Assembly (NCBI GenBank): GCA_903919535.1
Contig: CAIXIP010000074.1
Location: forward strand, 1-43,126
Direction: 5' to 3'
Origin: an uncultured Bacteroidota bacterium
GTDB taxonomy: Bacteria; Bacteroidota; Bacteroidia; 2-12-FULL-35-15
Length of the DNA: 43,126 nt
Below are positions 8,813-21,529 of the stretch, piece by piece. Within the stretch, counting starts at the first letter, position 1. Every line of letters starts with the position of its first letter. The position numbers and the translations under genes are program-made. Below the pieces are notes generated by a model. That model did no database searches. It saw only the letters and a program-made list of their open reading frames with translations, and was not told where the DNA came from.

Positions 8813-11800
8813 TTACTCTATAACAACTATCCTCTGTGTGCTTTCTTTTCCATCAATATTAAGCGTAATAAAATATACGCCCGAACTTAATTGAATGTTT
8901 TGATTGTTCAAATTGAATTTGTGATTTCCGGCTAATTGCCTTGAATTTACAAGTGATTTGATTTTTACACCCAAAACATTTATAACTTCTATTGTTACAT
9001 CTGATTCTTTTGAAATGTTGTATTCAATACTTGTATTTCCTTTAAATGGATTTGGATAAATTGAAAAATGAGATGTAACATCACTTGCAATATTATTGAT
9101 TCCGGTTGATGAAGTAGGAACAATATAAATTGTAGTTGAATCAACTAAATAATTTAAGCTATCGAAAGAAGGATTAGTTGCATCAAGAGTAATAGTGTAA
9201 GAAGAATCTCTACCTAGTCCCGGAACATCAGCATATATTACATATTCAGTATTTAACGCAAGGTTGCCAAAGGAATAATAACCATTTCCATCAGTTTGTG
9301 TACTAGCCATTATTTGTCCACCAGGGTTTTTCCCCAGTTTTACATCAAGTCCCGGAATCGGGTCACCTTCCTGACGAGCAACAAATCCAAATCCTTCTCT
9401 AATTATTCCTCCTAACGAACCAGGTCCTGAATTTGGAAGAGTGAAGATCGCAGAAATATTTGCCGTGTCATTAACACTACAATCGTGGCTGATTGTAGAA
9501 GCAGTAGTCCATAAAAATGTATTTCCAAAATAAGTTGGCACTGATGTTTGGTAAGACGTAATATTTGGAAAAACTTCTATTAAATAGGTACCATTATTAA
9601 TATTTGAAAAGTGGTAATTCCCATTTGCATCTAGTTGCACAGCATTGATGCTATCAAAACGCGTTAAGTAAGATTGATATTTATAAATTACAACTTCTCC
9701 ATTGGTAATGCTATTGAATCCTAAAGAGTCTACATGCCCGTATATATCAGTGCTTTGAATCACTGTTAAGGTTGTAGAACTACCTGCAGAACAAGCCCAA
9801 TTATCTGTAACGGTTAGTGAATATGTATATGTTGCTGCAGCCGGACTTACATTTATTGTTTGACCTGTATTTGTTGTACTTCCATCATACCAAGAATAAG
9901 TATAAGGCGAAGTTCCTCCAATTGCTGAAGCAGAAATTAATGCAGTGTCTCCTAAACAGATCTTTTGCACAGCCCCTGCATCTGCTGTTATTTGCGGACT
10001 AACATAAACAACTGTTGTGTCCTGAATAGGACAGCCAGTGGAAAGTGTATCAGCAACATAATAAATTGTAGTATTAATAGGAGTAACTGTTAGTCCAAAA
10101 GCAAGACTGTCATTTAATCCTGCATTGTTTGACCAATGATATCCCGGAGGGCTCGGTTGCCCAAAATTTGATAATCCAACAATACTTGCTGATAAGGAAT
10201 CGGAACCGTTAAAACAAATATGCGGCAGATGTGAATTTATTTGTAATCGAGGAATCTCTACTAATGCAGAATCGTGAGAAGAGCAACCTATTTGGTTTGT
10301 AACTGTTAATGTGTAAGTCGTACTTGATTGAGGAGAGGCTAGCAGGTTTGGCGCGTTGCTCGGCATCAACAACCCATTTGTTGGCGCCCACGAGTATGTT
10401 ACAACAGTATCTCGTTGAGAAAATTTCAAGGACCATCCTTTTAAATAACCATAATTATTTCCATAAGTATCGGTAAGTTGTAAAATCCAAATGCCATTTG
10501 TGGAACCTGACAAATTATATAAGGAATCAACAGGGCCAAATGAACCGGTATAAGGTGCTATCCCATTATAAATTGGGCCGCCACCTCTTATGAATGTTGT
10601 GCCAACATAATTATTACCATAGGCATAATTCGAAAGCGTTATTGGTGCACCAAAAGGAGGTTTAAGAGTTAATTGTAACCCGTTATTATTTATGTCAACA
10701 ATACTATCAATCGTAACTGAAATTATTGCATCGCCAGCCCATTCATCAGGAGCAATGTTTACCATTAATGTATCTGCAACTGATTCTAAACTAGAAAAAG
10801 GAACTTTTAAATTACTTTGAAAAGTGGGTCCTGTGGTACGCAAATTTGAATTTGCCGTTACAGGAAGTTGGACTGTATCGCCTTTACACAATAAAGAACC
10901 TCTGTCATAAAAATTTCCGGAATTTGAAGGAGATGGAATGTTTTTTAATGAAACAGTATCTACAACTTCACATCCGTTTGCTGATAGCACGGTAACAGCA
11001 TAGCTGCCAGGATAAGAAACCGTTAATGTTTGAGTTGTATCTAATGTTTGATTAAAGGCAAGGTCTGTCCATACATAACCGATACCAGAATTTCCAGCAT
11101 CAAAAGTATAAGGTATTCCGGAACAAATTGTTTTGTCAGCTCCAAGACTTATGCTTGGAGGAGATGTTAAACATAGTTTCCATATTTGACTTCCACTTGA
11201 TAAACTGTTCGGGCCTCTGATAATAGGAGGCGAGCTCATGAACTGATAATCACATGAATAATAAATGTTATTTCCAAATTGGATAGTTGAACCGTTTGCT
11301 CCATCTAAGCCTTGAACACCAAATCCATTATTTGTGGAATAGGTGTATGGAGATGTACTTGCGTCTCTTACAATAGCTGCAGGAGAGAATATACCTGTAC
11401 CTATATATTTACCTTGCAAGGTTGCGCATAATTTATTTGAAATAACTTGTAGGCTTGTAATTTTTCCAAAATTAGGATAAGTTGCTACTAAATTCCAAGC
11501 AATAAAATCTGTTGTTTCCCAAATTTGAGCACCATTATAACTTTCTGTTCCAATGTATAATTCATTGTTAAATGAAACCATTGCAGATATAGATGTTGAA
11601 CTGAATTGTGTGGTGTCGAGAATAATTGTACTTTCTTGTGTCCAATTATTGCCATCTGCAGAACTCCAAAGTGTTGGTTTGTATAAAGGAGCGCTCTGGC
11701 TTGTGCCAATATATAGCTTGCTATTATGAATGCAATTCGAAGTAATTGTAAAGTATCCATTATTTACAAAATTTGTTTGTGCCCATGAATTAGATAAATT

Positions 11801-12295
11801 CAATTGGTCGTTTTTCCATATTTCACTTCCATTTACTCCGTTTTTTATAACATAGATTGAATCAACGGTGCCAATCCCTTTGAAAGGGATGATAAAATTT
11901 GCACTCCCCGAAAATTTAAAATAAGGAGTCCAATTAGTTGAACCATCCGAAGAACGATAAATTATAGTAGTATCAGGATAGATAGAGTTGTAGTTATAAT
12001 AACCTGAAACATAAAAGTTGGAGGAGGTTGAATTTATCGCATTTACAGATGAAACGCCTGGTTGTGAAAATACTTTTTGCCAAGAATTTTTTTGACCAGT
12101 TGATGTTCTATAAACGTAACCACTGTCAGGTCCTGTTGCAGCATAAAGCCGATTATTAAATACATTCAAGCCTTTGCTTTGGGTATTATTTGTATTGTTA
12201 AACCCACCAATAACATTATTTACCCATGAATCTTGGGCAGATAAGGTATTAAGACCAATTAAAATTGTTGCAGAAACGAGTAATATTTTTTTCAT
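8813..12295 (-). CDS. Giant T9SS surface protein: propeller-like N-terminus, P-domain, PKD-like domains
   Basis: An 1160-residue secreted protein with a signal peptide ending in LSAQ. Residues ~22-380 contain repeated strands of the form LYIGTxxxxxAQIWETTD and LWSSADGNNW, typical of a sialidase/kelch-type beta propeller. Residues ~382-450 are Ig-like (SLGADKTICSG ... GCEVVDTV). Residues ~500-630 resemble a proprotein-convertase P-domain (APDEWAGDAIISVTID ... NGIWILQLTDTYGN ... LKGWSLKF). No subtilisin-type catalytic domain accompanies it. Two or three PKD/Ig-like domains follow (~635-845). The C-terminal module (TDIYGHV ... GDPIPGLDVKLGKNPGG, ~848-1075) and the type A sorting domain (FSIYPNPFKG, ~1078-1160) are shared with the 5307-8621 protein. 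It probably acts as an adhesin or structural surface protein (inference). Confidence 0.85.
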   Translation of the reverse strand: MKKILLVSATILIGLNTLSAQDSWVNNVIGGFNNTNNTQSKGLNVFNNRLYAATGPDSGYVYRTSTGQKNSWQKVFSQPGVSSVNAINSTSSNFYVSGYYNYNSIYPDTTIIYRSSDGSTNWTPYFKFSGSANFIIPFKGIGTVDSIYVIKNGVNGSEIWKNDQLNLSNSWAQTNFVNNGYFTITSNCIHNSKLYIGTSQSAPLYKPTLWSSADGNNWTQESTIILDTTQFSSTSISAMVSFNNELYIGTESYNGAQIWETTDFIAWNLVATYPNFGKITSLQVISNKLCATLQGKYIGTGIFSPAAIVRDASTSPYTYSTNNGFGVQGLDGANGSTIQFGNNIYYSCDYQFMSSPPIIRGPNSLSSGSQIWKLCLTSPPSISLGADKTICSGIPYTFDAGNSGIGYVWTDLAFNQTLDTTQTLTVSYPGSYAVTVLSANGCEVVDTVSLKNIPSPSNSGNFYDRGSLLCKGDTVQLPVTANSNLRTTGPTFQSNLKVPFSSLESVADTLMVNIAPDEWAGDAIISVTIDSIVDINNNGLQLTLKPPFGAPITLSNYAYGNNYVGTTFIRGGGPIYNGIAPYTGSFGPVDSLYNLSGSTNGIWILQLTDTYGNNYGYLKGWSLKFSQRDTVVTYSWAPTNGLLMPSNAPNLLASPQSSTTYTLTVTNQIGCSSHDSALVEIPRLQINSHLPHICFNGSDSLSASIVGLSNFGQPSPPGYHWSNNAGLNDSLAFGLTVTPINTTIYYVADTLSTGCPIQDTTVVYVSPQITADAGAVQKICLGDTALISASAIGGTSPYTYSWYDGSTTNTGQTINVSPAAATYTYSLTVTDNWACSAGSSTTLTVIQSTDIYGHVDSLGFNSITNGEVVIYKYQSYLTRFDSINAVQLDANGNYHFSNINNGTYLIEVFPNITSYQTSVPTYFGNTFLWTTASTISHDCSVNDTANISAIFTLPNSGPGSLGGIIREGFGFVARQEGDPIPGLDVKLGKNPGGQIMASTQTDGNGYYSFGNLALNTEYVIYADVPGLGRDSSYTITLDATNPSFDSLNYLVDSTTIYIVPTSSTGINNIASDVTSHFSIYPNPFKGNTSIEYNISKESDVTIEVINVLGVKIKSLVNSRQLAGNHKFNLNNQNIQLSSGVYFITLNIDGKESTQRIVVIE

Positions 12296-19885: not shown

Positions 19886-20144
19886 TGAATTTAATCAACG
19901 CGTTTTTTGATTTAAGTCTAAATCGATCTGATGTTGTAAGAGATTTAATTTATTCAAATAACACCTCACAACTCTAATGGGCATTATAGATTTTCGCAAT
20001 GATGATTTCTGGACTGCAAAAATATTTCAAAATGATGGTATGTTTTATTATGCGACATCTTTTGTAACACTGCTAATCGGGGATAAGAAAACTAATCATT
20101 TTGTTTTATTTGAATTTACTAAAACAGATACGGCCGAAATTTCT

Positions 20145-20152
20145 TACATTTG
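20145..20152 (+). promoter_or_regulatory. -7 box of the tRNA-Ser promoter (TACATTTG)
   Basis: TACATTTG matches TAnnTTTG and lies 14 bp before the first base of the tRNA. No TTTG is present at the expected upstream distance, so the -33 element is weak or absent. Confidence 0.45.
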
Positions 20153-20166
20153 CATTCCTAAAAAAC

Positions 20167-20253
20167 GGAGAGGTGTCAGAGTGGCCGAACGAGCAAGCCT
20201 GGAAAGTTTGTATACTCGCAAGGGTATCGCGGGTTCGAATCCCGCCCTCTCCG
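20167..20253 (+). tRNA. tRNA-Ser, anticodon GGA
   Basis: The 87-nt class II tRNA folds fully by eye. The acceptor stem is GGAGAGG/CCTCTCC with a G discriminator. The anticodon stem CAAGC/GTTTG (20194-20198 with 20206-20210) carries the loop CTGGAAA, anticodon GGA at 20201-20203. A long variable arm (ACTCGCAAGGGT) is present. The T-arm is GCGGG-TTCGAAT-CCCGC. It reads UCC/UCU codons. The CCA end is not encoded (the discriminator G is followed by CAC). A terminator follows at once, and the 3' side is the apparent integration site of the remnant element. Confidence 0.97.
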
Positions 20254-20256
20254 CAC

Positions 20257-20295
20257 AAAGGGACTTAGGCTCAAAAAGAGAGCTAAGTCCCTTTT
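20257..20295 (+). terminator. tRNA-Ser terminator
   Basis: AAAGGGACTTAG pairs with CTAAGTCCCTTT; a small inner CTC/GAG pairing caps it and a T-run follows. It begins 3 bp after the tRNA. The recombinase frame on the other strand reads through it without a stop. Confidence 0.85.
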
Positions 20296-20800
20296 TCATT
20301 TTAGCAAAATCGCCCGAATAACGGGCGATTTCAGCGATTATAAAATTAATATCCGGAGTTCGAAATACCCCATTTTCTTTGTCATATACCAAACCGGACG
20401 GGAATATCAGTTTTTGCAATTTCTCTTTGAGCGCGATACTTCCCTCTTGCCATAGTTTACGCAGGTTTCGACATAATACTGAGGCTTCATTTAGCATTTC
20501 TTTTAGGTTCGAAATGTAAACAGAACAACTGTCCATTTCTTTTTGAATCAGGTTGAAATCTTCCCGATATTTAGCAAGGAAACGGTTATAGGTTTCTTTG
20601 CTCATTTCTTCTTTAATGAAATATTTCTCCTCGAGCTTCTCAATATTCCTACCTATTTCCGTCATTCGAATTTTCAATGCTTGTTCCTTTTCGATATTCT
20701 CCTTATTTTGCTCATGATAGGTGCTTTCCAGCTCAATTTTGAGGGCTTCGGTCAAATCTTCCTTGATTTGGTACTTCTCAAGGTCGTTGGCAAATAATTC

Positions 20801-21529
20801 ATGCATGGATTTTGCACTTTTGTTGCACTTACTTTAGACCACAATAAGACTGTTTATTGCATCAATTATCTTAACCATAAAAACGACTACGTTAATCGGG
20901 TAGTAGATTTTAAAACTTTAGACCAAGATATCATTAAAGAAAAAAATTGGGAAAAAGAAAATGCGCCAATAAAATCAGATGATGTTTCAGAAAAAATTGA
21001 TTCATTTCTATTAGCCATAAACAAAAACCATAAATCGTATCCCTTGACAAAAAAATACAGAAAACAAATAGATACTGTTTTTATGTTTTTACATGGTGAG
21101 TTTTTTTATTGGAAAGAAGATATCGTGCCATTTAGGTTTGATTCTTTTGGAGAAAAAAATGAAAAAAAAGCTTTTGTTGTAGCGCCAATATTTACTAATC
21201 AGTGTTATAATTCCTTTAAACTCTCAGCAAAGGAGAGGGCATCAAAATCTGTAATAGATGAATTGTTGCCAAAATTGAGGGCTTTTAAATATTTTAAAAG
21301 TGCTGAGATTAAATATATTGGATTAAGTTGTGTTTATTCATGTAAGGATTTTACAGATGATAAGGCTGGAAATAAGATTGAATTTGTAGGAATTGTCATT
21401 CCTGTAAATCTTTTAAAAAAATACGTTTCTGGAAATATTACAAAAGAAGATTTTGTAAATCAAATAGATATCTATTCAAAGGATAAAGATTCTATTGATT
21501 TAGTGAAAATTAAAATTAATATTCAGTAG
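20801..21529 (+). CDS. Hypothetical protein inside the tRNA-Ser remnant element
   Basis: A 242-residue soluble protein that I do not recognise. The ATG at 20801 overlaps the 5' end of the divergent recombinase fragment by 6 bp. The first ~12 codons may be junction-derived, so the original start could have been lost. The protein is rich in Lys, Asp and Phe, has no signal peptide and no membrane segment. Landmarks are an FLHGEFFYWKED stretch near residue 105 and VGIVIPVNLLKKYVSG in the C-terminal third. Codon use is strongly A/T-biased like the flanking chromosome. It has no visible promoter pair and no partner gene. It could be cargo of the element or a chromosomal gene caught at the boundary. 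Confidence 0.6.
   Translation: MHGFCTFVALTLDHNKTVYCINYLNHKNDYVNRVVDFKTLDQDIIKEKNWEKENAPIKSDDVSEKIDSFLLAINKNHKSYPLTKKYRKQIDTVFMFLHGEFFYWKEDIVPFRFDSFGEKNEKKAFVVAPIFTNQCYNSFKLSAKERASKSVIDELLPKLRAFKYFKSAEIKYIGLSCVYSCKDFTDDKAGNKIEFVGIVIPVNLLKKYVSGNITKEDFVNQIDIYSKDKDSIDLVKIKINIQ

Follow-up and report, generated by a model that had tools for sequence, protein, structure and literature searches.

A widespread family of Bacteroidota serine integrases whose reading frame appears to run through a tRNA terminator into the attachment-site tRNA gene

Comparison of a serine-recombinase fragment with its intact relatives points to a widespread family of Bacteroidota elements in which the integrase gene, attP, a replacement terminator and a replacement tRNA 3' end very probably form one locked module. 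In such a module, integrase codons would pass through the terminator hairpin into antisense acceptor and T-stem sequence of a tRNA gene. The crossover of integration, presumably performed by the integrase itself, would take place in the stretch from the tRNA 3' end to the T-loop. It would restore the tRNA, supply it with a new terminator and fuse the integrase frame with tRNA DNA of the host, from which the final residues and, in most cases, the stop codon would then be read. The tail up to the tRNA edge would be functional, and the state-dependent part beyond that edge would be mostly passenger sequence. The module model is supported by a fixed spacing and frame, an open tail, a predicted terminator, attachment repeats of the tDNA type and predicted C-termini that differ between the integrated and circular states in four of five elements. 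Against it count the recovery of far ends in only 5 of the ~26 elements searched, the loss of frame in one locus (L103) and the disorder that AlphaFold2 predicts for the tail.

The window, the whole 43,126-nt stretch of DNA analysed here, holds a recombinase remnant beside a tRNA-Ser(GGA) gene (Table 1). The sequence-only reading had described a serine-recombinase fragment that runs antisense through a terminator and an entire tRNA-Ser gene. Both points were borne out: the fragment lies on the minus strand, is 220 aa long and is matched by intact relatives in tblastn, and the antisense run is confirmed by ARAGORN, Rfam and the sequence itself. The ~45 residues of antisense-tRNA peptide that it had counted need correction, as the tRNA encodes ~29 and the higher figure is reached only when terminator-encoded and post-tRNA residues are included. 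It had also placed the end of recombinase homology before the tRNA, but the alignments of G001 and G002 reach into it. Intact relatives of the same genus aligned at 20830-20165 on the minus strand with 69-72% identity, starting at residue 344, and the open frame of the window copy extends to 229 codons. The window recombinase lacks the first 343 residues, which hold the catalytic domain, the recombinase domain and most of the zinc ribbon, and by its sequence it is evidently a decayed fragment, a pseudogene. Pfam and NCBIfam profiles gave nothing useful on the fragment; its identity was obtained from whole-genome relatives. In all likelihood it is the leftover integrase C-terminus of an element once inserted at the 3' end of tRNA-Ser(GGA). 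No displaced tRNA 3' fragment was found at a far end for this copy. Decay of the window copy precludes mapping a crossover in it, and the interval in Table 1 was drawn by analogy with the att-repeat identity blocks of G018, G001, G260 and Puia L096/L276 and with the natural attP of L105 and L139. The broken end of the fragment abuts a 242-aa ORF that overlaps its first codons; this ORF has no significant Pfam match and its family is unassigned. Four further relatives are present in the same genome: one looks intact, with a 547-codon open frame (C177), two are located at tRNA-Leu and are cut by contig ends (C86, C109), and one is decayed and close to tRNA-Met (C158).

Table 1. Features at the recombinase remnant, in window coordinates
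Feature	Position	Strand	Basis
C-terminal remnant of a large serine recombinase, 220-aa open frame	20144..20806	-	ORF call; tblastn with intact relatives G001/G002
FPxG motif; its F codon anchors the 164-nt spacing to the T-loop	20402..20404	-	Sequence; spacing statistics
Hairpin plus T-run, predicted tRNA terminator within the recombinase frame	20257..20296	+	Sequence; equivalent hairpins in relatives
Stem of the predicted terminator, 12 bp, perfect	20257-20268 / 20283-20294		Sequence
tRNA-Ser(GGA), attachment-site gene, antisense to the recombinase frame	20167..20254	+	ARAGORN; Rfam RF00005, 48.2 bits
Probable crossover interval, tRNA 3' end to T-loop	20236..20254	.	Analogy with reconstructed att sites of relatives
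Recombinase frame past the tRNA 5' end, ~7 codons of host DNA, then stop	20144..20166	-	Sequence
242-aa ORF at the broken end of the remnant	20801..21529	+	

Intact relatives end in the same way as the window fragment. In the Pfam comparison they carry PF00239 (Resolvase) and PF07508 (Recombinase) above the cut-off, with a weaker PF13408 (Zn_ribbon_recom) below it. They thus have the architecture of large serine recombinases and would recombine attP with attB. In the first loci of the genus, at tRNA-Ser, Leu, Val, Phe and Met, the antisense T-loop was always read in one frame, as G-x-E-P. Across 80 Bacteroidota loci, FPxG and GxEP are separated by exactly 54 residues in nearly every tRNA-adjacent member. 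Dereplication at 85% left 78 recombinases, 66 of which have an adjacent tRNA or tmRNA, and in 66/66 the T-loop lies exactly 164 nt past the F codon of FPxG, in the GxEP frame. This count includes four tRNA-Leu(UAA) cases in which the automatic motif search had matched 6 nt early and in which the sequences put GLEP at the same codon. The outcome that would have spoken against the sequence-only reading, namely intact relatives that all stop early or insert elsewhere, was not what we observed; relatives with the same ending beside a tRNA occur across Bacteroidota. The sole frame exception seen beside a tRNA is L103, where the loss of 1 nt immediately ahead of tRNA-Asp shifts the recombinase away from the GxEP frame.

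The tail is also kept open in this frame. At tail codons +25 to +48, which link the folded domain to the tRNA, in-frame stops occur in 3/78 sequences, against 60/78 and 70/78 in the remaining two frames. The short rows of this count were inspected: three were mis-anchored on a wrong motif and have full-length tails, and one is a truncated copy, L137. Among tRNAs occupied by a recombinase, 104/104 have at least 54 stop-free codons of GxEP antisense frame upstream of the T-loop, and each of the two alternative frames is open in 1/104. The 'other' tRNAs that showed long open frames mostly proved to adjoin recombinases of the same type.

We then considered what the tail encodes at the DNA level. 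Hairpins with an A-rich left flank precede the tRNA 3' end, with a median folding z of -4.9 (71/74 below -2), and their arms typically finish within a few bases of it. Such a hairpin, with its A-rich left flank, is the predicted terminator of the tRNA. At the far end of G018, an element at tRNA-Leu, a further hairpin lies ahead of the displaced tRNA 3' end and is presumably the terminator native to the host. The element is therefore seen to carry a new tRNA 3' end and a putative new terminator, both within integrase coding sequence. In the tail, dN/dS is 0.54 as compared with 0.12 in the body, and synonymous sites are constrained too (pS 0.10 in the tail vs 0.31 in the body). Part of the tail constraint is thus predicted to act on the DNA, through the terminator, and not on the protein; the dN/dS together with the reduced synonymous change is as expected if DNA and protein were constrained jointly. 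AlphaFold2 modelling of an intact relative gave a fold that matches solved serine integrase-DNA complexes and ends near residue 505, with residues 507-558 disordered. The low pS of the tail, its strong hairpins and its predicted disorder would all suit an explanation in which the fixed spacing reflects constraint on DNA alone, from the geometry of terminator and attP, and translation of the tail is incidental. This explanation fails to account for the near absence of in-frame tail stops next to alternative frames that are filled with them, and we consider it unlikely.

Far-end att repeats were sought in ~26 elements of the same class. Four far ends were clear by repeat search and a fifth, in Puia dinghuensis, by pattern search. 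The identity blocks in these five relatives measure 17-57 bp and are 24-50 kb apart (27 bp and 35 kb in G018; 20 bp and 24 kb in G001; 22 bp uninterrupted and about 42 kb in G260; 57 bp and 50 kb in G049_C3; 16 of 17 bp and about 30 kb in Puia L096). All five have the arrangement of tDNA-type elements, in which one end carries the intact tRNA and the opposite end a displaced piece of tRNA 3' sequence. The other elements searched showed no far-end repeat within the DNA examined, be it through contig ends, decay or larger element size. Natural attP-like copies that lack a tRNA were found in L139/L222, L105, L152 and L124, with phage genes following in L139; they match integrated relatives up to the T-stem/T-loop and then diverge. 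The identity blocks of the att repeats and the natural attP-like copies place the crossover in the stretch from the tRNA 3' end to the T-loop, inside the recombinase frame. Two contigs suspected to be circular showed no terminal overlap. Phage and plasmid collections gave distant relatives only, and viral_contigs gave three loci, two of them informative (L222 and L224). In L224, a 9.4-kb viral contig, the recombinase runs into a tRNA-like 3' half and no complete tRNA was called; this is a putative attP with a long tRNA mimic. In L006/G001:C37, pieces of a second tRNA-Ser-like sequence follow the intact tRNA at a distance of ~300 bp and point to an integration that was either older or in tandem.

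We next compared the protein ends of the two states. Of the 66 members, 38 have a frame that crosses the entire tRNA; in 25 the frame ends within the tRNA but beyond the T-loop, and in 3 it ends ahead of the T-loop. The proposal that the host tRNA completes the C-terminus of intact recombinases thus holds for the 63/66 that run past the T-loop. Circular att sites were reconstructed for five elements and the predicted C-termini compared. In G018 the integrated form ends in GLEPIQSQ and the circular form in GLEPICPQWSQDEMICYNN; in G001 the ends are GFEPAVPCGT... and GLFAIAHDPCSPILKIK, in G260 GFEPAVRLPV... and GFESTCR, and in Puia L096 GFEPSVRLPA... and GLPPLAFGGAR, respectively. The predicted C-terminus of G049_C3 is identical in both states. 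A protein that differs between integrated and circular forms, as had been proposed, is thus predicted for 4/5 elements (G001, G018, G260 and Puia L096), and the natural attP-like copies part from their integrated relatives there too. Integrated tails past the crossover consist of host tRNA and flank sequence, which adds a few residues at tRNA-Ser(UGA) and tens at others; overall, their length ranges from a few residues to hundreds. In L081 and L086, the frame crosses tRNA-Ser(UGA) and stays in register with the host gene that follows, so that >1080 codons are open. Circular tails are short and unrelated to each other. In neither state did the post-crossover tails show a common residue pattern beyond what the tRNA imposes.

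Integrase C-termini altered by integration are already known from Mx8 and the rumA ICEs. In the Myxococcus xanthus phage Mx8, attP lies within int, and integration changes both the 3' end of the gene and the C-terminus of the protein (PMC6070905; PMC4701971), with 112 integrase residues replaced by 13 (PMC4701971); the specificity or activity of Int changes with the altered C-terminus (PMC6070905; PMC4701971). In streptococcal ICEs inserted in rumA, attR lies within the serine integrase gene, and the integrase of the excised form differs in length and C-terminus (PMC4701971). Like Mx8, the Bacteroidota elements have attP within the integrase frame and a predicted C-terminus that changes on integration (4/5 reconstructed elements). 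Mx8 is a single phage system with a tyrosine recombinase, whereas the Bacteroidota family comprises serine recombinases, is phylum-wide and keeps a fixed geometry at many different tRNA genes; a change in activity has been described for Mx8 and would be a putative one in the Bacteroidota family. The rumA ICEs differ in that they target a protein gene, and the cited part of PMC4701971 describes no antisense-tRNA tail or terminator overlap.

These precedents (PMC6070905 for Mx8 and PMC4701971 for the rumA ICEs) lend some appeal to a switch, in which host-tRNA-encoded and attP-encoded C-termini would differ in activity or stability and thereby control integration versus excision in the manner of Mx8. 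The differing predicted forms in four elements, the divergence of natural attP copies at that point and the frame that stays open into the crossover across the family would fit. Against this, post-crossover tails are unconserved in both states, with lengths between a few and hundreds of residues, the tail of G049_C3 is the same in both states, and the tail is predicted to be disordered by AlphaFold. Moreover, 3/66 members, and likewise the close relatives L077, L078, L110 and L008, stop before the T-loop; for these three members the state cannot matter because the frame ends before the crossover. We therefore regard a switch as very doubtful. The phylum-wide version, in which the host tRNA gene serves as the 3' coding end of the integrase and host- or attP-encoded tails set the direction of recombination, locking or marking the integrated state, appears to us just as improbable. 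Of the sequence-only reading, the tRNA-completed C-terminus and the state-dependent protein stand; the sensor of integration state that it had built on them is not supported, as the tails share nothing past the tRNA, 3/66 stop before the crossover and the G049_C3 tail is unchanged. Should the tail matter after all, the family would be a natural setting in which to study how elements tell that they are integrated.

In domain order and predicted fold, the Bacteroidota relatives resemble the large serine integrases of phiC31, Bxb1 and LI/A118. To our knowledge, these three neither use tRNA genes nor have an int frame that runs through attP into the target. The tDNA islands catalogued by Islander/TIGER restore the tRNA 3' end and leave a displaced 3' fragment at the far end (PMC4383910), as the Bacteroidota elements do; these islands have tyrosine integrases, whereas the Bacteroidota elements carry a serine recombinase by Pfam. 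They work like tDNA islands but fall outside the tyrosine-integrase class. According to the 2014 Islander paper, no serine-family integrase was then known to target a tRNA gene; the same paper notes that the Mx8 and SSV integrases extend across attP (PMC4383910). The main text of a 2022 large-scale survey of serine recombinases does not mention tRNA (PMC10083194), and in a survey of Mycobacterium abscessus prophages only tyrosine integrases are described with integration sites that overlap tRNA or tmRNA genes (PMC10654092). Within a literature search that covered subscription journals in part, we found no description of a serine integrase family ending in tRNA genes, and TIGER may hold such islands unremarked. 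The present family would extend tRNA-gene integration, credited to tyrosine integrases in 2014, to a broad group of Bacteroidota serine integrases, in a compact module that uses one stretch of DNA as integrase coding sequence, attachment site, tRNA terminator and tRNA 3' end. Their att sites should be predictable from the gene alone, which would help both to annotate such elements and to find insertion tools for Bacteroidota, and the antisense-tRNA peptides that end some recombinase annotations would be explained.

The targets of the 66 members are Ser, Leu, Met, Pro, Asp, Phe, Arg and Val tRNAs and tmRNA. A tree of 59 members requires at least 17 changes of target among tRNA types, and the geometry is therefore kept while the target switches. 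The recombinase frame of L151 (Draconibacterium, about 11506-11902) enters a tmRNA gene antisense at its 3' end, again at the 164-nt spacing. Of 20 loci sampled in a more distant subfamily, 16 are laid out in this way, and Ala, Glu and Asn tRNAs join the targets. That a decayed recombinase merely ran into an antisense tRNA frame that is often open, as the absence of stops from the GxEP antisense frame of many isoacceptors and the pseudogene state of the window copy might suggest, can practically be discounted given a spacing and frame that are the same in 66/66 at many tRNA types, tail stops in 60-70 of 78 for the alternative frames, and occupied tRNAs open in 104/104 as against 1/104 per alternative frame. 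Finally, recombinases that are 91-98% identical in DNA were found at different tRNAs (Ser-UGA, Ser-GGA and Asp) in L102, L105, L106 and L129 (and in L074-L089). Their bodies and terminators are 91-98% alike, and between different targets the ~12 bp of tRNA 3' end agree at 58-83%; these elements apparently retarget yet keep a matching tRNA 3' end.
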